Shown here: in pieces, positions 44,798-58,344 of the stretch
How the letters are laid out: every line of letters begins with the position of its first letter
Position numbering within the stretch: position 1 is the stretch's first letter
Assembly (NCBI RefSeq): GCF_003202205.1
Contig: NZ_PDOG01000001.1
Location: 696,358 to 760,357, forward strand
Origin: Halomonas sp. LBP4
GTDB lineage: Bacteria > Pseudomonadota > Gammaproteobacteria > Pseudomonadales > Halomonadaceae
Length of the DNA: 64,000 bases
Direction: 5' to 3'
Program-made: the position numbers and the translations under genes
The notes under the pieces: generated by a model
The model's database searches: none
The model's input: only the letters and a program-made list of their open reading frames with translations
Told to the model about the DNA's origin: nothing

Positions 44798-44909
44798 GCG
44801 GCTTTACCGGCGACAGGTCTCCGAGGAGGCGCTGTAGACCCCTCCATGGGCGCTACATTTGCCATCCATGGCAAATGACCTCCTCTCCGACCTGTCCCCG
44901 GCGCCGCTC
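44798..44909. repeat. 112-bp imperfect-palindrome element, copy A
   Basis: One of three 112-bp copies (others at 49648 and 55952). Outer arms pair (positions 1-5 with 106-110; 15-20 with 94-99; 26-32 with 82-88) and enclose a small CCC/GGG hairpin and a strong inner hairpin (60-79). It sits 61 bp downstream of the orn stop, between converging queG and orn. I cannot name the family. Confidence 0.92.
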
Positions 44910-44912
44910 ACA

Positions 44913-44962
44913 CGCTGCCCGTTGCCTGCCAGGCGCTTGTAGCTCGCCGCTTGGTGCTGGCC
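44913..44962. repeat. Degenerate array with 7-bp period next to copy A
   Basis: Seven heptads of the form NGNNNNN, the later ones close to NGCTNGN (for example CGCTTGT, AGCTCGC, CGCTTGG, TGCTGGC). They run from the end of the 112-bp element towards orn. Weaker than the other arrays. Confidence 0.5.
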
Positions 44963-44970
44963 CGAAGGGC

Positions 44971-45564
44971 CTACTCCTCCTCGTCGCGCTCCGTGCCCGG
45001 CAGACGCAGGAAAGTAGTGCGGTAGTGCGCCAGCTCGGCGATCGACTCGCGGATGTCGTCCAGCGCCAGGTGCGCGTTGCGCTTGCTGAAGCCCGCCAGG
45101 GCACCCGGGTTCCAGCGCTTGGCCAGTTCCTTCAGCGTCGAGACGTCCAGGTTGCGGTAGTGGAAGAACGCCAGCAGTTCGGGCATCTCGCGCTCCAGGA
45201 AGCGACGATCCTGGTGCACGCTGTTGCCGCACATCGGCGAGGTGCCTGGCTCGACGTGCTCGCGCAGGAACTCGAGGGTGCGGCGCTCGGCCTCGGCGGT
45301 GTCGGTCGTGCTCTCCTTGACCCGCTCGGCCAGGCCCGACTCGCCATGGGTCTTCTGGTTCCAGTCGTCCATGGCATCGAGCAGGCCAGCGGGCTGGTGC
45401 ACGGCGATCACCGGCCCCTCGGCCACCAGGTTGAGGTCGTTGTCGGTGACCAGGGTGGCGATCTCGATGATGCGCTCGCGGTTCGGGTCGAGGCCGGTCA
45501 TCTCCAGGTCGATCCACACCAGGCGCTGCTTGCGCGGGTCACGCTTTTCGCTCGTCTCGGACAT
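44971..45564 (-). CDS. orn: Oligoribonuclease
   Basis: 3'-to-5' exonuclease that degrades di- to pentaribonucleotides, including pGpG from c-di-GMP turnover. The 197 residues start [20 protein letters not shown]. DEDDh motifs: [20 protein letters not shown] (I), [19 protein letters not shown] (II) and [14 protein letters not shown] (III). About 15 residues longer than E. coli Orn at the N-terminus and ends in an acidic tail. Divergent from rsgA, as commonly seen. Confidence 0.97.
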
Positions 45565-45662
45565 GCGGGGGGTTCCTTGCTGGGCGGCGCTGCGGCATGG
45601 TTGACGACAGCGGGCACCCTGGGTGAGTACAATACCGTCATTGTACCGAGCTTCGGGCCCCC

Positions 45663-46682
45663 ATGAGCAAACGCAAGTTGAGCCGCCAGCAGCGCTGGCG
45701 CATCGAGAAGATCCAGGCCGAGCGCGCCCGGCGCGCCGAGCAGCTCGACGCCCGGGACGTCGACAGGCTGGCCGCCGGTGAATATGGCCCCGAGCAGCGG
45801 GGCCGGGTGATCGCCCACTTCGGCCGCACCCTGGACGTCGCTCCCGAAGGTGGTGGCGATGCCGTGCGCTGCCATCTGCGCGCCAACCTCGAGGGGCTGG
45901 TCACCGGCGACCGGGTGATCTGGCGCGCCGCCCGGGACGGCAGCGGTGTGGTGGTGGCGAGGGCCGAACGCGACAACGTGCTCGAACGCCCCGACGCCCG
46001 CGGCCAGCTCAAGCCGGTGGCGGCCAACATCGACCAGATCCTGATCGTCTTCGCCGTGGAACCGGCGCCCCATGCCAACCTGATCGACCGCTACCTGGTG
46101 GCCGGCGAGGCCACCGGCATCGCCCCGGTGCTGGTGCTCAACAAGATCGACCTGCTGCCGGAGGACGGTGGCGAGCTGCGCGAGCTGCTCGGCCGTTACG
46201 AGGCGCTGGGCTACCCGGTGGTGACCACCACCACGGCGCGCGAGGGTGGCCTGGCGGCCCTGCTCGCCCGGCTGGCCGGTCGCACCTCGGTGTTCGTCGG
46301 CCAGAGCGGGGTGGGCAAGTCCTCGCTGATCGATCGTCTGCTGCCGGATGAGGAACTTCGCATCGGCACACTGTCGAAGGACTCGCGCAAGGGCACCCAC
46401 ACCACCACCACGGCGCGCCTCTACCGGCTGCCCGCCTCCGCTGGTGGCGAACTGATCGACTCGCCGGGGATCCGCGAGTTCGGCCTGGTCCACCTGGACG
46501 AACAGCAGGTCGCCGAGGGCTTCATCGAGTTCCACGACCATCTGGGTCGCTGCCGTTTCCGCGATTGCCGCCACCGCCATGAGCCGGGTTGTGCCCTGCT
46601 GGCGGCCGTGGAGCGCGGCGAGATCCACCCCGAACGCTTTGCCAGCTATCGACGCATCGTCGACACTCTCGACGAGAGCTGA
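45663..46682 (+). CDS. rsgA: Small ribosomal subunit biogenesis GTPase RsgA
   Basis: Circularly permuted GTPase that matures the 30S subunit. The 339 residues start [21 protein letters not shown] basic N-terminal tail and OB domain precede the G domain in permuted order: G4 [12 protein letters not shown]1 [13 protein letters not shown]3 [10 protein letters not shown]. The C-terminal zinc finger is [16 protein letters not shown]. Length is near that of E. coli RsgA (350). Confidence 0.97.
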
Positions 46683-46739
46683 GACAAGAACGTCAACGTC
46701 GACGCCCCCGATTCGGGCCTGAGGTTAGGAGAGAGTGCC

Positions 46740-47570
46740 ATGAGTTCAGAAGACAACCTGTTGCCGCTGATCGTCGAGCCCGAGCGGCTCGCCGAGCACC
46801 TGGACGAGCCGTCGCTGCTGATCATCGACGTGCCGCTCAAGGCCGAGAGCTATGGCCAGGGCCATGTGCCCGGCGCCGTCTTCCTGGATCATCGCCTGCT
46901 GCTGAGCGGCGAGGGGGAGGTGCCCTGCAAGGTGCCCTCCACCGAGGCGCTCTCGCGGCTGTTCTCCTCGCTCGGCCTGACCCGCGACACCCATGTGGTC
47001 GCCTACGACGACGAGGGCGGCGGCTGGGCCGGTCGCCTGCTCTGGACCCTGGAGCTGATCGGCCACACCCGCTACTCCTACCTCAATGGCGGCATCCACG
47101 CCTGGCGGGAGGCCGGGCTGCCGGTCTCCACCGAGCCCCACGCCCCCGCGCCCAGCGACTACGAGGCCGAGATCCTGCATCCCGAGGTGGCCATCGATCG
47201 CCTCGAGATCATGGAGCGCCTGGGCGAGAAGGGCTTCGCCGTCTGGGACGCCCGCTCACGGGCCGAGTACGACGGCGAGAAGGGCAACAACAAGCACCTC
47301 GGCCATATCCCCGGCGCGGTCAACATGGAGTGGACCGAGGCCATGGACCGTGAGCGCGCCCTGCGCATCCGCGACTATGCCGAGCTGATCACCGAGCTCG
47401 AGGCCCTGGGCCTGACCCCGGACATGGAGGTGGTCACCCACTGCCAGAGTCACCACCGCAGCGGCTTCACCTGGCTGGTGGGCAAGGCACTGGGCTTCGA
47501 GAAGATCCGTGGCTATGCCGGCTCCTGGAAGGAGTGGGGCAACCGCGACGATACGCCGATCGAGAAATAG
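46740..47570 (+). CDS. Sulfurtransferase with two rhodanese domains
   Basis: Transfers sulfane sulphur, probably from thiosulfate. The 276 residues start MSSEDNLLPLIVEPERLAEH after TTAGGAGAG. The N-terminal rhodanese domain is inactive (Asp in AYDDEGGGWAGRLLW where Cys would be); the C-terminal domain has the active loop HCQSHHRSG with Cys 235. A CQSHHRS loop suggests thiosulfate rather than 3-mercaptopyruvate (CGSGVTA) as donor. It follows rsgA by 57 bp and precedes psd. Confidence 0.92.
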   Translation: MSSEDNLLPLIVEPERLAEHLDEPSLLIIDVPLKAESYGQGHVPGAVFLDHRLLLSGEGEVPCKVPSTEALSRLFSSLGLTRDTHVVAYDDEGGGWAGRLLWTLELIGHTRYSYLNGGIHAWREAGLPVSTEPHAPAPSDYEAEILHPEVAIDRLEIMERLGEKGFAVWDARSRAEYDGEKGNNKHLGHIPGAVNMEWTEAMDRERALRIRDYAELITELEALGLTPDMEVVTHCQSHHRSGFTWLVGKALGFEKIRGYAGSWKEWGNRDDTPIEK

Positions 47571-47721
47571 GCCCGAAGAAGAGGAGGCACCATGCGGCCT
47601 GCCGATGGGGAGGCGTATTCACCAGCGCCGGTGTAGCCCTCGGCGCCGGGATCAAGCCGGCCATCGGTGCCTACGGAAGCGGCCTCGTCCCTGCGCCGCT
47701 GTCTGGCCATCAACCAACCAT

Positions 47722-47745
47722 GGGGTGAACCTGCAAGCTCACCCC
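47722..47745. other. Hairpin in the leader region of psd
   Basis: Seven-bp perfect stem GGGGTGA / TCACCCC with a 10-nt loop, 31 bp before the psd TTG codon. It could influence psd translation; no T-run follows. The rest of the 206-bp gap shows no convincing gene. Confidence 0.3.
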
Positions 47746-47776
47746 GGTCCGAATTCAGTTCAAGAGAATCCCCGTC

Positions 47777-48622
47777 TTGTCACTTGCCAAGCTCTTCGCC
47801 CTGATCCAGTACCCCCTGCCCCACCACCTGCTCTCGCGGCTGGTGGGCCGGTTCGCCGAATGCCGCCTGCCGTGGCTGAAGAACGTCCTGGTCCGCGCCT
47901 TCATCAAGCAGTTCAAGGTCGACATGACCGAGGCCGCCGAGCCCGACCCGACCGCCTATGCCACCTTCAACGACTTCTTCACCCGCGAGCTCAAGCCGGA
48001 GGCCCGCCCCCTCGGCGAGGGCGTGGTCAGCCCCGCCGACGGCACCCTCTCGCAGTTCGGCGCCATCGAGGCCGGCCAGCTGTTCCAGGCCAAGGGGCAC
48101 CGCTTCTCGGCCATGGAGCTCTTCGGCGGCGACGGCGAAGCGGCCAGGCGCTACCTGGGCGGCAGCTTCGCCACCGTCTATCTCTCGCCGAGCGACTACC
48201 ACCGGGTGCACATGCCACTGGCCGGCTCCCTGACCGAGATGGTCTATGTGCCGGGCCGGCTGTTCTCGGTGAACGCCGCCACCACCGAGCACGTGCCCAA
48301 CCTCTTCGCCCGCAACGAGCGCCTGGTGTGCCACTTCGACACCGAGTATGGGCCCATGGCGGTGGTATTGGTCGGCGCGATGATCGTCGCCGCCATCGAG
48401 ACGGTATGGGCCGGCCAGATCACACCGCTCTCCGGCGAGGTGCGGCGCATCCGCTTCGACACCCCGGTACGGCTCGCGAGGGGCGAGGAGATGGGCCGCT
48501 TCAAGCTCGGCTCCACCGTGGTGATGGGCTTCGCCGAATCGGCAAGCTTCGCCGATCTCGACCCCGGCGCCAAGGTGCGGATGGGTCAGTCGCTCGGTAG
48601 TCTTCCCCCCTGCGAGGGCTAG
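47777..48622 (+). CDS. psd: Phosphatidylserine decarboxylase proenzyme
   Basis: Makes phosphatidylethanolamine. The 281 residues start, by alignment to the family, at a TTG codon ([20 protein letters not shown]); no ATG or GTG fits, and the ribosome-binding site is poor (AAGAG, 10 bp away). Motifs: [46 protein letters not shown], and the self-cleavage site FKLGSTVV, where the Ser becomes the pyruvoyl group. Its stop overlaps the epmA stop on the other strand (shared CTAG). Confidence 0.95.
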
Positions 48623-49593
48623 CAACGCGGCGTGGCGAAGGCCATAACTTCCGCCACGTCTGCCCTGCCCAGGGCCAGCTGGACCAGCCGGTCGATGCCC
48701 AGGGCCACCCCGCTGCCGGCCGGCATGCCGTGCGCAAGCGCCGTCAGCAGCCGCTCGTCGACATCCACCTCGGGCAGGCCCAGCCGACGGCGGGCGGCGT
48801 TGTCCTCGGCGAAGCGGGCGCGCTGCTCCCCGGCATCGGTGAGCTCGTCGTAACCGTTGGCGAGTTCCAGCCCCGCCAGGTAGACCTCGAAGCGCGACGC
48901 CACCCAGGCGCCATCCTCGGGGTCGCGATGGCGCCGGGCCAAGGCCGCCTGGCTTGCCGGGTAGTCCACCACCACGTCCAGCCCGCCCCGGCCGAGGGTC
49001 GGCTCGATCGTCAGGCTCATCAGCAGGTCCAGGCAGTCGTCGCGGGAGGCATCGCTCATCTCGAGTCCGCCCGCGTCGCCGGCCAGCCGCTGCAGTTCGG
49101 CAAGCGGAGCCGTGAACGGGTCGCGCCCCAGCGCCTCGCGGAACAGCTCGCGGTAGCGGCGCCGCCGCAACGGGCCCGGATCTCGCCCCAGCACGGCACG
49201 GATCAGCTCGGCGGTCTCCTCGATCAGCTCATCGAGGGCGAACCCCGGCCGATACCACTCCAGCATGGTGAATTCGACGTTGTGGCGCCGCCCCACCTCG
49301 CCGTCGCGGAAACTGCGCGCCAGCTGGAAGATGGGGCCGCTGCCGGCGGCCAGCAGCCGCTTCATGTGGAACTCCGGCGAGGTCTGCAGCCAGAGCCGCT
49401 CACGGCCGGCCGGCGTCGTGGCCTCGGTGCACAGCGAGGCCAGGTGCACGTCGGTGCTGCCGCCGTGCCCCAGCACCGGGGTCTCCACCTCGAGCACCCC
49501 GCGGCCGGCGAAGAAGGCCCGCACCTCGGCGAGCAACCGCGCCCGCTCGCGCAGGGTCTCGAGGGTGGCAGTGGGCTGCCAGTCGCTTGCCAT
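48619..49593 (-). CDS. epmA: EF-P--(R)-beta-lysine ligase
   Basis: Truncated class II lysyl-tRNA-synthetase paralogue that attaches (R)-beta-lysine to Lys34 of elongation factor P. The 324 residues (E. coli 325) start [20 protein letters not shown]. Synthetase motifs: [37 protein letters not shown] (motif 2), [10 protein letters not shown] and [11 protein letters not shown] (motif 3); there is no anticodon-binding domain. Its stop shares CTAG with psd. It lies 194 bp downstream of efp on the same strand, with copy B of the 112-bp element in between. Confidence 0.95.
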
Positions 49594-49614
49594 AGCACCA
49601 TCCTCTACCTACGC

Positions 49615-49640
49615 GAAGGCCACGCCGAAGCGTGGCCTTC
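49615..49640 (-). other. Hairpin with UUCG tetraloop upstream of epmA
   Basis: On the minus strand an 11-bp perfect stem (GAAGGCCACGC / GCGTGGCCTTC) is closed by C(UUCG)G, one of the most stable RNA tetraloops. It ends 22 bp before the epmA start and has no T-run, so it may protect or stage the efp-epmA message. Confidence 0.55.
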
Positions 49641-49647
49641 AGGAGCC

Positions 49648-49759
49648 GCGCCTTGCCCGGCGACAGGCCGTCGCGGAGGCGCTGTGAACCCTTGCCTGGG
49701 CGCTACCTTTGTCATTCCTGACAAATGACCTCCGCTTCGCCCTGTCCCCGGCGCCGCTC
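49648..49759. repeat. 112-bp imperfect-palindrome element, copy B
   Basis: Same orientation and exact length as copies A and C. Inner-hairpin pair 65/74 is T-A here (C-G in A) and outer pair 27/87 is C-G here (A-T in A). It sits 28 bp downstream of the efp stop and before epmA. Confidence 0.92.
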
Positions 49760-49783
49760 GTAGCTCCTAGCTCTTAGCTCAAT
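49756..49783. repeat. Array with 7-bp period next to copy B
   Basis: Four heptads GCTCGTA, GCTCCTA, GCTCTTA, GCTCAAT directly continue from the 112-bp element to just before the efp stop. Confidence 0.75.
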
Positions 49784-49787
49784 ACAA

Positions 49788-50354
49788 TCAGGCGCGAGAG
49801 ACGTACTCGCCGGAGCGCGTATCGACCTTCAGCACCTCGCCCTGGTTGATGAACAGCGGCACGCGGACCACGGCACCGGAGGAGAGGGTCGCCGGCTTGG
49901 AGCCGCCCTGGGCGGTGTCGCCCTTGAGGCCCGGGTCGGTCTCGACCACCTCCAGCTCGATGAAATTGGGCGGGCTGACGGCGATGGCGTTATCGTTCCA
50001 CAGGGTCACGGTGTAGGGCACCTGCTCCTTGAGCCACTTCTCGGTGTCGCCCAGGGCCTTCTTCTCCACGGCGTACTGCTCGAAGGAGCCGTCGGTCTTC
50101 ATGAAGTGCCACATGTCGCCGTCGGTATAGAGGTACTCCATCTCCAGCTCGAGGACATCGGCGCCTTCGAGGGATTCGCCGGACTTGAAGGTCCGCTCCC
50201 AAACGCGGCCGGTGATCAGGTTGCGCAGCTTGACGCGATTGAACGCCTGTCCCTTGCCGGGCTTGACGAATTCGTTCTCGACGATGGTGCAGGGATCGCC
50301 GTCCAGCATCACCTTCAGACCGCCCTTGAATTCGTTGGTAGAATAGTTCGCCAT
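49788..50354 (-). CDS. efp: Elongation factor P
   Basis: Relieves ribosome stalling at polyproline stretches. The 188 residues start [20 protein letters not shown]. Lys34 in KPGKGQAF is the residue modified with beta-lysine; epmA and epmB flank the gene, so this organism uses the E. coli-type modification rather than rhamnosylation of an arginine. All three domains are complete ([30 protein letters not shown]). Divergent from epmB. Confidence 0.98.
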
Positions 50355-50462
50355 GATCTCTCACCCATATTCGGGCGCGCCGCCGGCCAGTGCCGGTGGC
50401 GCACCCAAGCAAACGAAGTTCGACGAGGGCTCGCCCCTCGCCCGCATTGACTGGTGTGCCGC

Positions 50463-51500
50463 ATGATAACCCGAAGCCCCGCCCTTTTGCAGCGTCCCGA
50501 CCGGGAGGCCCGGCCGCTGGCCCTCGCCGCCCCCTGGCAGACCCAGCTGTCCCGGGCGATCCGCGACCCGCACGAGCTGTGCCGGCGCCTCGGCCTGGAT
50601 GACGCCTGGCTGCCGGGCGCCGAGGCCGGGCACGGCCTCTTCGAGGTGCGGGTGCCGGAGGCCTATCTCGCACGCATCCGCCCCGGCGATCCCCACGACC
50701 CGCTGCTGCGCCAGGTGCTGCCGCTGGCTGCCGAGGCTGCCTCGGCCAGCGGCTTCGTCGACGATCCGCTGGCCGAAGCCGACCACGCGCCGGCGCCGGG
50801 GCTGATCCACAAGTACCGGGGACGCGTGCTGCTGATCGCCAGCCCCGCCTGTGCGGTGAACTGCCGCTACTGCTTCCGCCGTCACTTCCCCTATGAGGAC
50901 AATTCGCCCTCCCGGGCCCAGTGGCAGCAGTCGCTGGGCTATCTGCGCGAGGACGCCTCGATACGGGAAGCGATCCTTTCCGGCGGCGACCCCCTGGCCG
51001 CCAGCGACCGCCGGCTCGCCTGGCTGGTGGAGCGGCTCGAGGCCATCCCCCACCTGAAGCGGTTGCGCATTCACACCCGGCTGCCGGTGGTGATCCCCGA
51101 CCGCATCGACGGCGCCCTGCTCGACTGGCTCGCGGCCACCCGATTGCAGAGGGTGATGGTGCTGCATATCAATCACCCCGGCGAGATCGACGACGCCGTG
51201 GTCGCTGCCTGTGAACGACTGAAGCAGATCGGCGTGACTCTGCTCAACCAGAGCGTGCTGCTGCGCGGCGTCAACGACGACGTCGGCACCCTGGCCGCGC
51301 TCTCCGAGCGGCTGTTCGAGGCGGGGGTGCTGCCCTACTACCTGCATGTGCTCGACCCGGTGGCCGGTGCCGCCCATTTCGACGTGCCGGATAACGAGGC
51401 CCGCGAGCTGGTCGCGGGCCTGAGAGAGATGCTGCCGGGTTTCCTGATGCCGCGGCTGGTGCGGGAGATCCCCGGTGAGGCCAGCAAGACGCCCTTATAA
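50463..51500 (+). CDS. epmB: EF-P beta-lysylation protein (radical SAM lysine 2,3-aminomutase)
   Basis: Converts L-alpha-lysine to (R)-beta-lysine for EpmA. The 345 residues start MITRSPALLQRPDREARPLA; an in-frame GTG three codons upstream is possible. The radical-SAM cluster motif is CAVNCRYCFRRHFPY, followed by AILSGGDPLAASD, RIHTRLPVVIP and the PLP-binding region near LLNQSVLLRGVND. It is shorter than clostridial KamA (about 415 aa), as expected for EpmB. Divergent from efp; ends in a strong terminator. Confidence 0.95.
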   Translation: MITRSPALLQRPDREARPLALAAPWQTQLSRAIRDPHELCRRLGLDDAWLPGAEAGHGLFEVRVPEAYLARIRPGDPHDPLLRQVLPLAAEAASASGFVDDPLAEADHAPAPGLIHKYRGRVLLIASPACAVNCRYCFRRHFPYEDNSPSRAQWQQSLGYLREDASIREAILSGGDPLAASDRRLAWLVERLEAIPHLKRLRIHTRLPVVIPDRIDGALLDWLAATRLQRVMVLHINHPGEIDDAVVAACERLKQIGVTLLNQSVLLRGVNDDVGTLAALSERLFEAGVLPYYLHVLDPVAGAAHFDVPDNEARELVAGLREMLPGFLMPRLVREIPGEASKTPL

Positions 51501-51528
51501 GCTGTAAGCCTTAAGCCGTAAGCTATAA
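51501..51528. repeat. Array with 7-bp period after epmB (left arm)
   Basis: Four heptads GCTGTAA, GCCTTAA, GCCGTAA, GCTATAA start at the base after the epmB stop. With 51564-51591 they flank the terminator as an inverted pair. Confidence 0.8.
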
Positions 51529-51534
51529 GTTAAC

Positions 51535-51565
51535 CCCCCAAGGCATGACACCTTGGGGGTTTCTT
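51535..51565. terminator. Terminator between epmB and leuA
   Basis: Nine-bp stem CCCCCAAGG / CCTTGGGGG with a 7-nt loop, followed by TTTCTT on the plus strand and GGTTAACTT on the minus strand. It serves epmB and probably also leuA, which converges on it. Confidence 0.82.
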
Positions 51566-51591
51566 ATGGCTTAAAGCTTTCAGCTTATGGC
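51564..51591. repeat. Array with 7-bp period before the leuA stop (right arm)
   Basis: Four heptads TTATGGC, TTAAAGC, TTTCAGC, TTATGGC: the reverse-complement style (GCCATAA, GCTGAAA, GCTTTAA, GCCATAA) of the left arm at 51501. Confidence 0.8.
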
Positions 51592-51610
51592 TGCCGACCG
51601 GCGAAGCCAG

Positions 51611-53317
51611 TCAGGCCAGCGTGGCCGCGGTCACATTGGCCGCCGGTTCCGCGGTGGAAACGTGGCGGTTGATGGCGCTCATCACCGCCTTCATGGAGGC
51701 GCTGGTGATGCTCTCGTCGGTGCCCACGCCGAACACCGCCTTGCCGTCGATGCGCACCTCCACGTAGGCGATCGCCTCGGCGTCCGCGCCCTGGCCGCGG
51801 GAGTGCTCGTGGTAGTCGATGATCTCGACGTCATGGCCGGCCGCCGCCAGGGCCTTGATGAAGGCCGCCAGCGGGCCGTTGCCCTCGCCGCGTATCGCCT
51901 GGCGCTCGCCGTTCGCCTCGATGCTCGCCTCCAGGCTCACCCGGGGGCTGTCGGGCTCGGAGGAGAGCCGATGGTTGATCAGCGCGAAGGGCGCGCGCCG
52001 CTCCAGGTATTCGTCGGCGAAGGCCTGGTAGATCATCTGCGAGGTGATCTCCTTGCCCGTGCGGTCGGCGACCTCCTGCACCACCTGGCTGAACTCGATG
52101 GAGAGCCGACGCGGCAGCTCGATGCCGTGCTCCTGCTCGAGCAGGTAGGAGACCCCGCCCTTGCCCGACTGGCTGTTGACCCGGATCACCGCCTCGTAGC
52201 TGCGCCCCACGTCGAGCGGATCGATGGGCAGGTAGGGCACCTCCCAGACCGCATCGGGGTTGGCGCGCCGCTCGGTCATGCCCTTCTTGATGGCATCCTG
52301 GTGGGAGCCGGAGAAGGCGGTGAAGACCAGGTCGCCCACATAGGGGTGGCGCGGGTGCACCGGCAACTGGTTGCAGTACTCCACCTCGCGCATGATCGGC
52401 GTGATGTTGGAGAAGTCGAGCCCCGGGTGCACGCCCTGGGTGTAGAGGTTCATGGCGAGGGTGACGATGTCAACGTTGCCGGTGCGCTCGCCGTTGCCGA
52501 ACAGGGTACCCTCGACGCGGTCGGCGCCGGCCATCACGGTGAGCTCGGCTGCGGCCACGCCGGAACCGCGGTCGTTGTGCGGATGCACGCTGACGATCAG
52601 GCCGTCGCGGCCCTTGACGTTGCGGCAGAACCATTCGACCTGGTCGGCGTAGTTGTTGGGGGTGGCCACTTCCACGGTGGCCGGCAGGTTGACGATCATG
52701 CGCTTGTCGGGTGTGGCGCCGTAGGCCTCCATGACGGCCTCGACGATCTCCCTGGCGAAGTCCATCTCGGTGGTGGTGAACAGCTCCGGCGAGTACTGGA
52801 AGGTCCAGTTCGTCTCCGGGGCCGCCTCCATGCGGCTTCGAATCTGCGCGGTTGCGTCCACGGCGATCTGGATGCACTCGGGCTTGCTGACGTTGAACAC
52901 CACGCGGCGGAACACCGGGTCGGTGGCGTTGTAGACGTGGACGATGGCGTTCTTCGCCCCCTGCAGCGCCTCGAAGGTGCGGTCGATCAGGTGGGGGCGG
53001 GCCTGGGTCAGCACCTGGATGGTGACGTCATCGGGCACCTTGTCCTGCTCGATCAGCGCACGCACGAAGTCGAAATCGGTCTGGGAGGCCGAGGGGAAGC
53101 CCACCTCGATCTGCTTGAAGCCGACCTTCACCAGCAGGTCGAAGAAGCGCTGCTTGCGCTCATGGTCCATGGGGTCGATCAGCGACTGGTTGCCATCGCG
53201 CAGGTCGACGCTACACCACAGCGGGGGAGTCTCGATGCGGCGGTTCGGCCACTGGCGGTCCGGCAGATCGACGGCGACGAAGGGGCGATACTTGGTGGCG
53301 GGGTTGTCGAGCATCAT
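51611..53317 (-). CDS. leuA: 2-isopropylmalate synthase
   Basis: First committed step of leucine synthesis: condenses 2-ketoisovalerate with acetyl-CoA. The 568 residues start [26 protein letters not shown] lies upstream. The TIM barrel contains [24 protein letters not shown] (metal-binding HxH) and [10 protein letters not shown]; the C-terminal regulatory domain (about 440-568), which binds leucine in this family, is complete. It is the longer LeuA type found in Pseudomonas and Mycobacterium, not the 523-aa enteric form. Expression is probably attenuated by the leader at 53562-53618. Confidence 0.95.
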
Positions 53318-53382
53318 GGTGGCATTCTCCCTGGGCTGGCGACGCTGGTGTTCGGAAGTCGGGCGGCATTCAGAAACGGCAA

Positions 53383-53412
53383 CGCCCCGGATGCATCGAG
53401 CATACCGGGGCG
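53383..53412 (-). promoter_or_regulatory. Second hairpin in the leuA leader
   Basis: Eight-bp CGCCCCGG / CCGGGGCG stem extended by ATGC/GCAT, 66 bp before the leuA start. The exit reads GTTGCCGTTTC, too poor in U for a certain terminator. It may be an extra pause or translation-control structure. Confidence 0.35.
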
Positions 53413-53526
53413 CCGGGGCACGCAGCAAAACGATTCGCGCGGCCGACAACGACCATGCGAGAACCGCGACTACTGCGGACAAGAATTCGGACGGAAGACA
53501 TTTCGACACCTCGACTGACCTGGACT

Positions 53527-53550
53527 CAAAAATGCGATGCGCAGCGCATC
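53527..53550 (-). terminator. leuA attenuator terminator
   Basis: On the minus strand ATGCG - 8 nt - CGCAT is followed at once by TTTTT; an overlapping alternative stem GATGCGC/GCGCATC can also form. It begins 12 bp after the leader-peptide stop, the position expected of an attenuator. Confidence 0.7.
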
Positions 53551-53561
53551 ACCCGGCACGA

Positions 53562-53618
53562 TCAAAGGCCGGTTAGTAGTCGTAGGTCCAGGCTGGGGTG
53601 ACGAAATTCAGTGTTCAT
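53562..53618 (-). CDS. leuL: leuA leader peptide (attenuation control)
   Basis: 18-residue peptide MNTEFRHPSLDLRLLTGL with five leucines, three of them rare CTA codons in this GC-rich genome, two of those adjacent. A hairpin with a T-run follows 12 bp after the stop, and leuA lies 245 bp downstream. This is the layout of leucine-operon attenuation: ribosome stalling at Leu codons prevents the terminator from forming. Oddity: AGGGAG is only one base from the ATG, so initiation may be weak, or the transcript may begin at or near the ATG. Confidence 0.72.
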   Translation of the reverse strand: MNTEFRHPSLDLRLLTGL

Positions 53619-53648
53619 GCTCCCTAGAGAATCAGCATGCGACGCCCT

Positions 53649-53654
53649 TGTCAA
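53649..53654 (-). promoter_or_regulatory. Possible -35 box (TTGACA) upstream of the leuA leader
   Basis: Perfect TTGACA on the minus strand, but the hexamer 17 bp downstream is TTCTCT, a poor -10 box, and would place the start site at the leader ATG. Recorded as a weak candidate only. Confidence 0.3.
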
Positions 53655-53675
53655 GCCGGGCCGCCATTTCTGTCC

Positions 53676-53830
53676 TCATGGCGCCTCGGCTTCGGCATGG
53701 CGCCACCAGTGGAACAGGGCCTCCGGCTCGCGGCCCCGAAACGACGGCCGGCGTTGTCCAGGGCCAGCTCGGCGAAGGCCGCGAAGTCGCTGTCGCGGGC
53801 ATCGAGGCCGGATGACTCCTTGTCAGGCAC
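53676..53830 (-). pseudogene. Possible small ORF with a frameshift, downstream of the sodium channel
   Basis: Starting from a GTG 21 bp after the channel stop, the frame reads VPDKESSGLDARDSDFAAFA and on to DNAGRRF with strong GC3 bias. About 95 bases in, that bias switches to another frame, which reads GREPEALFHWWRHAEAEAP and then stop. The joined length (155 nt) is one base short of a whole number of codons, as expected for a single-base deletion in a gene of about 51 residues. I do not recognise the product; a sequencing error is an alternative. Confidence 0.35.
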
Positions 53831-53851
53831 AGGCGGCGCGGGAATGGTCCC

Positions 53852-54685
53852 CTATTCGCCCCGCCGCTCGAGCAGCGCCTCCATCCGCGAGAGCTGGTCG
53901 CGCATCTGGCGCACGTCGCTGCGCAGGCCGTGCAGCTCGGCGGCCTCCCCCGTGCCGCTCTCGAGCTCGATCTGCGCGCTCTCCTTCTGCATCACGTCGA
54001 GCACGATGCCGATCATCATGTTGAGGAAGATGAAGGCGTTGAGGAAGATGAAGGTCAGGAAGTAGATCCAGGCGTAGGGGTAGTGCTCCATGATGGGGTA
54101 GAGCACCGCGGTGGCCCAGCTCTCGAAGGTGGCGACCTGGAACAGCGTCAGCATGGCCAGCGAGATGTTGCCCCACAGCTGCTCGTCGACGCTGGCGAAC
54201 AGGAAACTGCCGATGGCGCCGTAGATGTAGAAGATGATGAACATCAGCAGCGCCACGTAGCCCATGCGCGGGATCGACTTGAACAGCGCCGCGATCAGCA
54301 TGCGCAGCTCGGGGATCATCGATACCAGGCGCAGCACCCGGAAGATCCGCAGCAGGCGCGCCAGCAATACCATCTCCGAGTCGTCCAGGGGAACCAGGCT
54401 GGCGGTGACGATCAGGAAGTCGAAGACGTTCCAGCCCCGCTTGAAGAAGTCGCGCAGGCGCTTCTCCGCCGCCATGCGGATCAGGATCTCCACCAGGAAG
54501 AACACCGTCACCGCCGTGTCGAGCAGCAGCAGCCACTCCTGGAAGGGGCTGACCTCCTCCTCGTAGGTCTTGGCGCCGATCAGCAGCGCCGAGACGACGA
54601 TGATGGTGATCACCGTCAGCTCGAAGGCCTTGTGGGCGCGCAGCCGCTCGAAGCGGCCGCGCCAGGTCTCGAAGGTCGTGCTCAC
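53852..54685 (-). CDS. Bacterial voltage-gated sodium channel (NaChBac-type)
   Basis: Single-domain six-helix channel that assembles as a tetramer in the inner membrane. The 277 residues start MSTTFETWRGRFERLRAHKA at a GTG whose ribosome-binding site (GGAGGAG) overlaps the serB stop. S4 carries regularly spaced arginines (LARLLRIFRVLRLVSMIPELR). The selectivity filter TLFQVATFESWA keeps the Leu-Glu-Ser-Trp-like pattern of sodium-selective BacNav channels. S6 (FIFLNMMIGIVLDVMQ) leads to a C-terminal coiled coil (ELHGLRSDVRQMRDQLSRMEALL). Coupled to serB; a halophile or marine link is plausible. Confidence 0.92.
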   Translation of the reverse strand: MSTTFETWRGRFERLRAHKAFELTVITIIVVSALLIGAKTYEEEVSPFQEWLLLLDTAVTVFFLVEILIRMAAEKRLRDFFKRGWNVFDFLIVTASLVPLDDSEMVLLARLLRIFRVLRLVSMIPELRMLIAALFKSIPRMGYVALLMFIIFYIYGAIGSFLFASVDEQLWGNISLAMLTLFQVATFESWATAVLYPIMEHYPYAWIYFLTFIFLNAFIFLNMMIGIVLDVMQKESAQIELESGTGEAAELHGLRSDVRQMRDQLSRMEALLERRGE

Positions 54686-54689
54686 GGCC

Positions 54690-55910
54690 CTACTCCTCCA
54701 GATCCACCTGGCGATAGCCGATCAGGTAGAGCACCGCATCGAGGCCCAGGGTCGAAATGGAGTGGCGGGCCTGGCTGCGCACCAGCGGCTTGGCACGGAA
54801 GGCGATGCCGAGCCCGGCGGCGGCCAGCATCTTGAGGTCGTTGGCACCGTCGCCCACGGCGATGGTCTGCTCCATGGCGAACCCCTCGCGCGCGGCGATC
54901 TCGCGCAGCAGCGCCGCCTTGCGGTCGGCGTCGAGGATCGGCTCGCGCACCTCGCCGGTGACCTTGCCGTTCTCGATTACCAGCTCGTTGGCATGGATCT
55001 CGTCGAAACCGAGCCGCTCCTGCAGGTGGCGGGCGAAGTAGGTGAAGCCCCCGGAGAGGATCGCGGTGCGATAGCCCAGCCGCTTGAGCTGCGTCATCAG
55101 CCGCTCGACGCCATCCATCAGCGGCAGCTCCTCGGCGATCTCGGCGAGCACCGACTCATCGAGTCCCTTCAGCTTGCTCATGCGCTCGCGGAAGCTCTGC
55201 TGGAAATCCAGCTCGCCGCGCATGGCCCGCTCGGTGACCGCGGCGACCTCGTCGCCGACGCCGTGACGCCGCGCGAGCTCGTCGATCACCTCGGTCTTGA
55301 TCAGGGTGGAGTCCATGTCGAAGCAGACCAGGCGACGGTGGCGACGCCAGATGGAGTCCTCCTGGATGGCGATGTCGACGCCATGCATGGCGCCCAGCGC
55401 CAGGGCCTTCTCGCGCAGGGCATCGAGGTCGATCTCCTCGCCGCGCAGCCAGCATTCCACGCAGGCACCGCTGATGCTCGCGTGTTCGTGGGGCACGCCG
55501 CCGTCCAGCGGCTCGCGGCCGGAGAGGCGATGGATCAGTTCCACGGTCAGGCCATGCTCGGCGGTCAGCGCCCCCACCTCGGCGAGGATCCCCGCCGGCA
55601 GGTGCGGCGCCAGCAGCGTCAGGATCAACCGCGGCTGGCTGGCGTGGGCACTCCAGCGCTGATAGTCCTCGGCGCTGACCTGGATCGCCTGGACGTCGAG
55701 ACCCAGGGCGTCGCCGGCGGCGGTCAGGGCGCCCTCCAGGTCGTTGTCCTGGCCGAGCCCCACCAGGGCCTCCAGGGAGAGCATGTCGAAGGTCACGCTC
55801 TGGTTGATGTCCAGCAGGCGGGCGCCGCTGGTGGCAAGGGCCTTGCCCAGGCCGGCCAGCTGGCCGGGACGCGCCGTGCCGGTGGCGCGAATCAGTACTC
55901 GTCGTGTCAT
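54690..55910 (-). CDS. serB: Phosphoserine phosphatase
   Basis: Last step of serine synthesis. The 406 residues start MTRRVLIRATGTARPGQLAG after TGAGG. An ACT-like N-terminal half (about 1-180) precedes the HAD core: FDMDSTLIKTEVID (motif I, nucleophile Asp), ILSGGFTYFA (II), RKAALLREIA (III) and AVGDGANDLKML (IV). The long ACT-containing form resembles the Pseudomonas and mycobacterial enzyme. The sodium-channel start follows its stop by four bases, so the two are one transcript. Confidence 0.95.
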   Translation of the reverse strand: MTRRVLIRATGTARPGQLAGLGKALATSGARLLDINQSVTFDMLSLEALVGLGQDNDLEGALTAAGDALGLDVQAIQVSAEDYQRWSAHASQPRLILTLLAPHLPAGILAEVGALTAEHGLTVELIHRLSGREPLDGGVPHEHASISGACVECWLRGEEIDLDALREKALALGAMHGVDIAIQEDSIWRRHRRLVCFDMDSTLIKTEVIDELARRHGVGDEVAAVTERAMRGELDFQQSFRERMSKLKGLDESVLAEIAEELPLMDGVERLMTQLKRLGYRTAILSGGFTYFARHLQERLGFDEIHANELVIENGKVTGEVREPILDADRKAALLREIAAREGFAMEQTIAVGDGANDLKMLAAAGLGIAFRAKPLVRSQARHSISTLGLDAVLYLIGYRQVDLEE

Positions 55911-55951
55911 GGTTGCCTCAAAATCCGAGCGTACCCAATACGCTGATTGAG

Positions 55952-56063
55952 GCGGCTTTTCCGGGGACAGGCCTGCGCGGAGGCGCTGTGAACCCCTCCC
56001 TGGGCGCTACCTTTTCCTTCCCTGGAAAAGGACCTCCGCTTCGACCTGTCCCCGGCGCCGCCT
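55952..56063. repeat. 112-bp imperfect-palindrome element, copy C
   Basis: Third copy, same orientation and length. Inner-hairpin pairs 60/79 (C-G; A-T in copy A) and 64/75 (T-A; G-C in A and B) are changed in compensating fashion. It sits 19 bp downstream of the parC stop and before serB. Confidence 0.92.
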
Positions 56064-56082: not shown

Positions 56083-58344
56083 TCAAACTTCCGGCATCAA
56101 GCTTTCCAGCCGGTCGACCTTCTGCAGGCCACGGGGCAGCTTGCTGCCGCGCCGGCCGCGCTCGCCACGATAGTAATCCAGATCGGCGGCCTTGAGGGTC
56201 AGGTGACGCTTGCCGGCATGCACCACCAGCGCGCTCCCGGCGGGCAGCACCACCAGGTCGCGCACGAACTCCTCGCGCCGGGCGGCTCGCGCGCCCGGGA
56301 TGTCGATCATCTTGTTGCCCTTGCCCTTGGCCATCTCGGGCAGCTGCTCGAGGGGGAAGACCAGCAGCCGCCCCTCGTTGGAGACCGCGGCCACGCTGGC
56401 GCCCTCCTCGTCGGGCACCGCGCAGGGGGGCAGCACGTTGCAGCCCTTGGGCACGCTGAGCACCCCCTTGCCCGACTTGTTCTTGCCGACCAGCTCCTCG
56501 AGGCGGGCCACGAAGCCGTAGCCGCCGTCGGAGGCGAGCAGGAAGCGCGCCGTGGGCGGCGCCAGCATCAGCCCCGCCATGTGCGCCCCGGCCACCACGT
56601 TGACCCGGCTGGTGACCGGCTCGCCCTGGCCGCGGGCGCTGGGCAGGTTGTGGGCGGCCAGGGTATAGGCACGGCCGGTGTCGTCGAGCAGCACCAGCGG
56701 CTGGTTGGTCTTGCCCCGGGCCGCCAGGGCGAAGCGGTCGCCGGCCTTGTAGGAGAGCCCGACGGGGTCGATCTCGTGACCCTTGGCACTGCGGATCCAG
56801 CCCTTCTCGGAGAGCACCACGGTGACGGGGTCGGCGCCGACCAGCTCGACCTCGGAGAGCGCCCGGGCCTCCTCGCGCTCGACGAGGGGCGAACGGCGGG
56901 CGTCGCCGTACTCCTTGCCGGCGGTGCGCAGCTCCTCCTCGATCAGGTCGGTGAGCCTGGCCTCGCTGCCGAGCAGCGCCTCGAGGTGCTGGCGTTCGGC
57001 CTCGAGCTCGTCCTGCTCGCCGCGAATCTTCATCTCCTCGAGCTTGGCCAGGTGGCGCAGGCGCAACTCGAGGATCGCCTCGGCCTGGCGGTCGCTGAGC
57101 CCGAAGGCCGCCATCAGCGCGGGCTTGGGCTCGTCCTCCTCGCGGATGATGCGGATCACCTCGTCGATGTTGAGGTAGGCGATCAGCAGGCCCTCGAGGA
57201 TATGCAGGCGGTCCTGCACCTTGCCCAGGCGATGTTCGAGGCGCCGGCGCACGGTGGTGCGGCGGAAGCGCAGCCATTCGCCGAGCAGGTCGGGCAGCGA
57301 CAGCACCCGCGGGCGGCCGTCGAGGGCGATCACGTTCATGTTGACGCGGATGTTCTTCTCGAGATCGGTGGTGGCGAACAGGTGCGCCATCAGCGCCTCG
57401 ATATCGACCCGGTTAGAACGCGGCTCGATCACCAGCCGGGTCGGCTCCTCGTGGGTCGACTCGTCGCGCAGGTCGGCCACCATGGGCAGCTTCTTGGCCT
57501 GCATCTGGGCGGCGATCTGCTCGAGCACCTTGGCGCCGCTGACCTGGTAGGGCAGCGCGGTGATCACCACGCTACCCTCCTCGCGCATGTAGCGGGCGCG
57601 CAGCTTCACCGAGCCGCGGCCGCTCTCGTAGAGCTTTCGCAGGTCGGCCCGCGGGGTGATGATCTCGGCTTCGGTGGGAAAGTCCGGCGCCGGCAGGTAC
57701 TGGCCGAGATCCGCCGTGGTCGCCTCGGGGTGGCGCAGCAAGTGACAGGTGGCCTCGACCACCTCGTTCACGTTATGCGGCGGGATATCGGTGGCCATGC
57801 CCACGGCGATGCCGGTGCCGCCGTTGAGCAGCACATGGGGCAGCCGTGCCGGCAGCACCACCGGCTCGTTCATGGTGCCGTCGAAGTTGGGGGTCCAGTC
57901 GACGGTGCCCTGGCCGAGTTCCGAGAGCAGCACCTCGGCGAACTTCGACAGCCGTGCCTCGGTGTAGCGCATGGCGGCGAACGACTTGGGATCGTCGGGG
58001 CTGCCCCAGTTGCCCTGGCCGTCGACCAGCGGGTAGCGGTAGCTGAACGGCTGGGCCATCAGCACCATGGCCTCGTAGCAGGCGCTGTCGCCGTGGGGGT
58101 GGAACTTGCCGAGCACGTCGCCGACGGTACGCGCCGACTTCTTGTACTTGGCGCTGGCGGAGAGTGCCAGTTCGCGCATGGCGTAGACGATGCGCCGTTG
58201 CACCGGCTTCATGCCGTCGCCGATGTGCGGCAGCGCCCGGTCGAGGATGACGTACATCGAGTAGTCGAGGTACGCCTTCTCGGTGTACTCGCGCAGCGAG
58301 AGGCGCTCGACATCGCCCTCCGCCACCTGGATATCCATGGTCAT
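56083..58344 (-). CDS. parC: DNA topoisomerase IV subunit A
   Basis: Breakage-reunion subunit that decatenates replicated chromosomes. The 753 residues start [20 protein letters not shown] after AAAGGGG. The active-site Tyr is in [10 protein letters not shown]. The quinolone-resistance region reads [13 protein letters not shown], with wild-type Ser and Glu. The C-terminal part carries degenerate GyrA-like beta-pinwheel blades. It is 282 bp downstream of parE, a gap filled with REP-like units. Confidence 0.97.

Follow-up and report, generated by a model that had tools for sequence, protein, structure and literature searches.

Three copies of a structured element in the window

The window (the whole 64,000-nucleotide stretch analyzed here, positions 696,358 to 760,357 of contig NZ_PDOG01000001.1 of Halomonas sp. 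LBP4) contains three copies, designated A, B and C, of a 112-nt element, each lying between genes and downstream of a minus-strand gene (Table 1). The element consists of a long outer stem and two hairpins with hexaloops of the form ANGGAN closed by C-G, and is interpreted below as a very probable binding site for CsrA. The first-pass annotation, made from the letters alone, had described three 112-bp copies of equal length and orientation whose arms form a long stem around hairpins, 19-61 bp behind minus-strand genes that it named orn, efp and parC. This description holds throughout: the copies align without gaps over 112 columns in one orientation (mean column identity 91%); compared with 200 dinucleotide-shuffled sequences, all six single strands of A, B and C fold more stably, with z from -4.1 to -7.8, the minus strand being the more stable in every copy; the stop codons lie at distances of 61 bp (orn), 28 bp (efp) and 19 bp (parC); and protein-family matches bear out the three gene names, with the neighbors epmA, serB and queG verified as well. 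A search with the core pattern at up to 3 mismatches returns A, B and C and no other site in the window (0 expected). Four compensatory pairs pointed out earlier (27/87, 65/74, 64/75 and 60/79) are all found in the alignment, although copy B disrupts 60/79 with a C·T mismatch. Both loop motifs are intact in copies A and C, and hairpin 1 of copy B is probably a decayed site. By eye, no U-tract follows A, B or C on the 3' side; thus these copies are not themselves terminators.

Table 1. Copies of the element in the window, their hairpins and the genes upstream (CM, covariance model)
Feature	Position	Strand	Context or loop	Basis
Copy A, full 112-nt element	44798..44909	-	between orn (upstream, sense) and queG (convergent)	CM score 130.2 bits
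Copy A hairpin 2	44856..44877	-	loop AUGGAU	sequence and consensus pairs
Copy A hairpin 1	44839..44850	-	loop AUGGAG	sequence
Copy B, full 112-nt element	49648..49759	-	between efp and epmA (codirectional)	CM score 120.9 bits
Copy B hairpin 2	49706..49727	-	loop AGGAAU, GGA displaced by one	sequence
Copy B hairpin 1	49689..49700	-	loop AGGCAA, without GGA	sequence
Copy C, full 112-nt element	55952..56063	-	between parC and serB (codirectional)	CM score 130.5 bits
Copy C hairpin 2	56010..56031	-	loop AGGGAA	sequence
Copy C hairpin 1	55993..56004	-	loop AGGGAG	sequence
orn, oligoribonuclease	44971..45564	-	upstream of copy A	NF003765, 282.5 bits
efp, elongation factor P	49788..50354	-	upstream of copy B	TIGR00038, 251.6 bits
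parC	56083..58344	-	upstream of copy C	TIGR01062, 1112 bits

A genome-wide family with compensatory changes

The LBP4 genome has 41 BLAST matches to copy B. A covariance model (R1) was built in the minus-strand orientation on 38 of the 40 elements from BLAST (without L037 and L040, which is split), and with it the genome-wide search proposed in the first-pass annotation could be performed. Scoring of 150 of 6189 first-look candidates gives 63 places at E ≤0.001, of which 52 are full copies at ≥109 bits, i.e., about 60 intergenic copies with strong covariation. In the 38-row alignment, standard pairs occupy 97.4% of pair cells, and sliding the partner register by 1-3 columns reduces pairing to 34-52%. 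Two-sided changes occur in 19 of the 34 pairs, and cells with a double-sided change number 142, versus a shuffle mean of 42; the pairing percentage, the double-changed pairs, the double-changed cells and the covariation score are each attained by 0 of 500 shuffles. Further pair types do not stand out (33 versus 31.6 in shuffles, a value attained by 164 of 500). The earlier claim of a selected structure, drawn from three copies, thus extends well beyond them. By eye, conservation within this genome stops at the borders of the 112-nt element, except in the subset of copies carried by miniature inverted-repeat transposable elements (MITEs).

Two highly conserved GGA loops at constant spacing

Over the 52 full copies, the hairpin 2 loop reads A (52), N (G37, T13, A1, C1), G (52), G (50), A (51), N (T40, A11, C1), and the hairpin 1 loop reads A (52), N (G39, A6, T6, C1), G (52), G (51), A (52), N (G29, A13, C6, T4). 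Only 4 of 416 cells deviate at the A, G, G and A positions of both hairpins (99% fixed), compared with 63 of 208 cells that deviate from the commonest base at the four N positions and with an average of 15% at paired positions. Where a copy has both motifs, a spacing of 22 nt separates them without exception (49 of 49 copies). For comparison, passages of PMC7652899 describe a hexaloop, ANGGAN, seen in structures of RsmE and the consensus RUACARGGAUGU from systematic evolution of ligands by exponential enrichment (SELEX) with CsrA, and bridging by a CsrA dimer is reported over 10-63 nt in part of PMC4066749. Judged by sequence, the copies thus have what is expected of a CsrA/RsmA-type RNA (ANGGAN loops, with at least two sites 10-63 nt apart), copy B in part only, and the LBP4 genome has a single, intact csrA gene.

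Departures from this architecture were also seen. At L138:1501-1571 and L139:1501-1571 the outer stem is kept and both hairpins are absent. In enlarged variants (L040, the second copy of L008, L142-L144 and L335) hairpin 2 is opened into a multi-branch domain that holds a CCATGGATGG or CCAAGGATGG hairpin; the enlarged variants were chosen by eye from 11 loci, and in nine of the ten folded the extra domain has a GGA apical loop.

Distribution among Gammaproteobacteria

A search of other Halomonadaceae, likewise proposed earlier, finds R1 matches in 152 of the 201 family genomes searched, representing 15 of 24 genera, and in the class R1 matches 31 of 369 genomes; named Halomonas and Billgrantia loci score 95-120 bits and the next named loci down to 66 bits. 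The hairpin 1 pattern alone occurs in at least 118 stretches of named genomes, and the 80 titles listed include Stenotrophomonas, Halomonas, Microbulbifer, Marinobacter, Shewanella, Rheinheimera, Xanthomonas, Methylomicrobium and Yersinia proxima. These stretches provide 121 usable copies in 109 loci (10 matches lie too close to an end), from which 23 were excluded as Halomonadaceae to leave 98 distant copies, loci after L260 being assigned by sequence likeness; some counts cover L181-L288 only, and the others all 118 stretches. The hairpin 2 loop, which is outside the search pattern, has GGA in 105 of the 121 copies (crude finder) and CANGGAN in 82. Distant copies have the two loops and a UUCACRGCG tail in common, whereas their outer stems are different yet near-perfectly paired, and several genomes hold two copies with the same loops and unlike but paired outer stems. 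A wider model (R2), from an alignment without matches above E 0.0015, matches 74 of the 369 class genomes (67 of 272 genera); in a phylum sample of 398 genomes, whose share from outside the class is unstated, all 36 that match belong to this class. The architecture is thus dispersed through Gammaproteobacteria.

At one locus of another genome (L410:1788-3152) six modules form a tandem array on a single strand with a period of 227 bp. Every unit also has a TTATCGCGGCTGAAGCCGCTCCTACAAAA-like stretch, which we take to resemble the repetitive extragenic palindromic (REP) sequences of Pseudomonas. An RNA spanning this array would hold about twelve GGA hairpins.

The folding strand

The mismatches that persist in the stems distinguish the two strands. 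When the consensus pairs of the LBP4 copies are read on the minus strand, G·U occurs 26 times, A·C 5 times and other mismatches 39 times (p 0.0002), and leaving out the weak pair 20/92 gives 17 and 5 (p 0.017). At one stem position, 50 of 52 copies have U·G. Outside the Halomonadaceae, 88 stems from the 98 copies, which were picked on hairpin 1 sequence alone, contain G·T 77 times, A·C 12 times and mismatches of other kinds 94 times (p 9e-13); the other 10 copies have no stem under the stem rule used. These p-values assume independent cells, an assumption that related copies violate. A second count outside the family, from 43 of 56 copies, gives 34 GT and 4 AC, but is less neutral because its copies were selected with the RNA model. 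That G·U outnumbers A·C argues for selection on the minus strand alone, and this strand, which is sense to orn, efp and parC, is the likely folding molecule, most simply as RNA, single-stranded DNA of the same strand being a possible alternative. Cruciform or other double-stranded DNA structure is disfavored, since just one of the two strands shows more G·T than A·C. The "RNA or DNA structure" of the first-pass annotation is thereby narrowed to RNA over double-stranded DNA; it had, however, read the plus strand and not the one that folds.

Mobility of a minority of copies

Terminal repeats CAGGGCNATCGC / GCGATNGCCCTG (at least 9 of 12 bases matched on each side) bound 12 of the 63 places in the LBP4 genome, in units of 144-176 bp (166 bp in seven). 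The 10-base flanks of these 12 match at 0.783, compared with 0.296 ± 0.044 in shuffled pairs; among flank lengths of 4-13 only 10 is far out, 7 being mildly raised (0.393 versus 0.269 ± 0.047). Seven of the 12 have 9-10 of 10 flank matches and five have 4-7. Terminal inverted repeats together with a target site duplication, the hallmarks of a MITE, are thus present at some copies elsewhere in the genome. They are not present in the window: no terminal repeat adjoins A, B or C, a target duplication at a common offset is absent from the 42 remaining full copies, A, B and C among them, and no duplication directly at the 112-nt edges scores ≥5. Seven single copies, among them copy B, have 9 of 10 flank matches at odd offsets, a count for which many offsets were tried without a null.

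In another genome, the unit that holds copies L106 and L171 has GTRACTACTC at its ends and shows duplications of exactly 8 bp, and L170 has the same ends with 6 of 8 bases duplicated; two of five copies inspected in that genome have no such ends. The module at these three loci, which come from a bacterial family other than that of LBP4, is contained in a 170-180 bp MITE with ends GTRACTACTCANCGTA. The two unit types are unlike, so the module is cargo of no fewer than two MITEs. MITEs hold a minority of the copies, and the module is partly mobile; the outcome named beforehand as refuting selection of the structure, a match to a known mobile palindromic repeat with no transcript, is thus seen in part, for up to 12 of 63 copies. 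Origin from REP-associated (RAYT) transposases was rejected, since the one Y1 (REP-type) transposase gene found in the genome (L041:1213-1869) is bracketed by GGGGTCAGACCCC palindromes and not by the element. Carriage by phages or plasmids is limited to 9 viral stretches and one Halomonas replicon, and these are therefore not a main route.

Position and orientation relative to genes

Genes were called with a custom codon-usage gene caller. The 52 full copies are intergenic, the sole exception being a 25-base overlap with a called open reading frame. On the folding strand (E), 22 copies lie between two sense genes (>E>), 16 are convergent (>E<), 8 are antisense to both neighbors (<E<) and 6 are divergent (<E>); a sense gene is thus upstream in 38 of 52 copies, and >E> exceeds <E< with p 0.016. 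The earlier idea of a role in 3' untranslated regions (UTRs) accordingly fits the LBP4 genome; it does not carry over to the copies outside the Halomonadaceae, where no orientation bias is seen (below), and a sense 3' UTR role for all copies was rejected. Among congener loci (30 of 58 efp matches and 30 of 60 orn matches, the LBP4 loci included), a sense copy stands behind efp in 10 of 30, one of them at only 29 bits, and behind orn in 5 of 30, with one antisense copy at each gene. Three more efp sites resemble scars of internal deletion.

Relation to known RNAs and repeats

The Rfam comparison proposed in the first-pass annotation places the window copies below every threshold (zero families in a scan of the window), with weak relatives in rsmX, TwoAYGGAY and Ysr224. 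On these scores membership of the window copies in RF01731, rsmX or RF02770 was rejected. TwoAYGGAY (RF01731), an orphan RNA which shares an Rfam clan with rsmX, likewise has two successive GGA-loop hairpins within a poorly conserved outer stem, and at L379 its model aligns both AYGGAY loops onto the two loops of the element; its scores reach 19.4 bits in the LBP4 genome and 40.4 and 38.3 bits in the best scanned relatives, against a gathering cut-off of 43. The strict AYGGAY is not kept (Y stands at position 2 in 14 of 52 hairpin 2 loops and 7 of 52 hairpin 1 loops), and, unlike TwoAYGGAY, the element has a conserved tail, UUCACRGCG, and is present in many copies per genome, some of them in MITEs. 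TwoAYGGAY was published as a candidate RNA, in gamma-Proteobacteria among others (passages of PMC2864571), and CsrA binding has been proposed for it (a passage of PMC4333381).

The Yersinia proxima copy is at the same place a full match to Ysr224 (RF02770; 94 bits, cut-off 70); in the window copy C reaches 22.2 bits and copy B has no listed match. At L194:375-481 the Rfam strand of Ysr224 is opposite to the selected strand, and the entry may need to be revisited in this respect. Several Ysr224 copies are transcribed in Yersinia ruckeri with differing expression profiles (passages of PMC12112432), and Ysr224 is within the top-20 table of a small RNA (sRNA) survey (PMC9029176, in excerpt); the passages of these two papers that were available state no link to CsrA or TwoAYGGAY.

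CsrB, RsmX, RsmY and RsmZ are similar to the element in that their hairpins expose ANGGA for CsrA, but each of them is a dedicated sRNA that offers several to many sites, whereas the element has two per copy and is dispersed as tens of copies with no shared promoter seen; rsmX scores 23 bits on copy B, below its cut-off of 56. RsmU of Xanthomonas campestris, described in part of PMC7694677 as an RsmA-binding RNA from a 3' UTR, differs from the dispersed element in being a single locus with its own terminator, and was rejected as a family member (R2 matches 0 of 3 comEA-like loci, L303-L305). According to the same passages RsmU keeps binding and function when all four predicted GGA are changed, which advises caution against taking GGA loops as proof.

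With MITEs and palindromic intergenic repeats such as REP the element shares the form of a short dispersed intergenic palindrome, some copies of which have terminal repeats and duplications; ERIC, too, is a short dispersed palindrome between genes. The core of the element is constant across MITEs with differing ends, and is selected on a single strand. Among the listed matches in open-licence literature none joins CsrA with dispersed repeats or MITEs; PMC4383904 contains both sets of terms, in unconnected contexts in the passages available, and the listed papers matched by sequence strings are unrelated.

Discussion

Loop pattern, strand and spacing together make a CsrA/RsmA-binding RNA the best reading of the element, and we consider this assignment very probable on sequence grounds. 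Several observations weigh against it and against the fuller reading set out below. Hairpin 2 has about 8 pairs, whereas most SELEX hairpins have ≤4 contiguous pairs and very stable hairpins may be disadvantageous (passages of PMC7652899), and one loop motif is gone from copy B. A simple ungapped stem count reverses the mismatch bias in the LBP4 copies (GT 6, AC 21 in 50 of 52) and shows none in Halomonadaceae relatives (5 versus 5 in a partial set, 7 versus 6 in the full set); the G·U excess in this family is visible on consensus pairs only, which we attribute to the ungapped register crossing a conserved internal loop. Strand-specific single-stranded DNA structure in transposition could yield an equal mismatch bias. 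Outside the Halomonadaceae the 98 copies are >E> in 26 and <E< in 25 cases (22 convergent, 13 divergent), and a second distant set of 56 copies has 9 and 16; many copies there are thus antisense to both neighbors. Rfam files Ysr224 on the strand complementary to the folding strand, as an orphan sRNA. Terminator-like sites are sparse and favor the complementary strand (15 versus 4), and a terminator placement was rejected for this reason.

Of the alternatives, the one that survives best, though unlikely, is a selfish MITE-like repeat that uses its hairpins as single-stranded DNA or RNA in its own transposition, the likeness to CsrA sites being incidental. The 12 copies with CAGGGCNATCGC-type ends and matching flanks, the exact 8-bp duplications of L106 and L171 in another MITE, and the unbiased orientation outside the Halomonadaceae all speak for it. 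However, 42 full copies have no duplication at a common offset; shared loops with differing but paired outer stems are unlike decaying transposon copies; loop A and GGA are nearly invariant while N varies; and an identical core in MITEs of differing ends and duplication lengths suggests that no single transposase dictates it.

Less likely still is local control in cis, in which CsrA bound to the element would alter the stability or expression of the adjacent gene without titration. The position of the LBP4 copies shortly behind sense genes and the sense copies after efp and orn in congeners are consistent with it, but presence at orthologous sites is patchy, three efp sites bear apparent deletion scars, and the random orientation outside the Halomonadaceae weakens any general cis model. 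A general REP-like stabilizer or insulator of 3' ends, shielding mRNA from exonucleases with no protein partner, is improbable: the very stable folds (z down to -7.8), the location behind stop codons and the preponderance of convergent over divergent contexts (16 versus 6) would suit it, whereas the ANGGAN constraint in two hairpins and the constant 22-nt spacing would go unexplained, and the lack of a U-tract sets the window copies apart from terminators. Free-standing trans-acting sRNAs with their own promoters that pair with mRNAs, as suggested by Ysr224 (listed as a Yersinia sRNA with copies of differing expression, PMC12112432 in part) and by the 94-bit Yersinia proxima copy, are the least credible of all, since Rfam uses the complement of the strand on which selection acts and conservation that stops at the 112-nt element (by eye, MITE subset aside) leaves no shared promoter.

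The fuller reading of the element as a genome-distributed, partly mobile CsrA-binding RNA module, in this genome mostly behind sense genes and acting as a decoy or anchor, appears to us reasonably probable. Copies would be transcribed by read-through from neighboring genes, in LBP4 for the most part within a 3' UTR or intercistronic RNA, and each transcript may bind one CsrA dimer across both loops. Many copies jointly could then form a distributed decoy through which free CsrA would be coupled to bulk transcription; on a single mRNA the bound dimer may also shield the 3' end. The chances of decoy action by many copies seem evenly balanced; it is nonetheless our first choice over local protection, and local control and selfish spread, the main rivals, can both coexist with it. 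The enlarged variants and the six-copy array would be in keeping with a function that grows with site number.

A further, tentative and rather less likely proposal is that the CsrA-binding module is a recurrent cargo of different MITEs, that helpful copies are kept by compensatory evolution while transposon ends are lost, and that the roughly 50 copies in Halomonadaceae act as a CsrA buffer. If so, insertion would scatter ready two-site CsrA docks through genomes. The CsrA-antagonist RNA of Halomonas anticariensis is listed as unknown in the passages available of PMC7366521, and the element is a concrete candidate for a CsrA antagonist in Halomonas. Dispersed intergenic palindromes, TwoAYGGAY and Yersinia Ysr224 are also brought under one testable biochemical reading. 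Were that reading true, a few sponge RNAs would not be the sole determinants of the CsrA set point, which in many bacteria would hang on genome-wide, partly mobile decoys in ordinary transcripts, and transposition could rewire a global post-transcriptional regulator.

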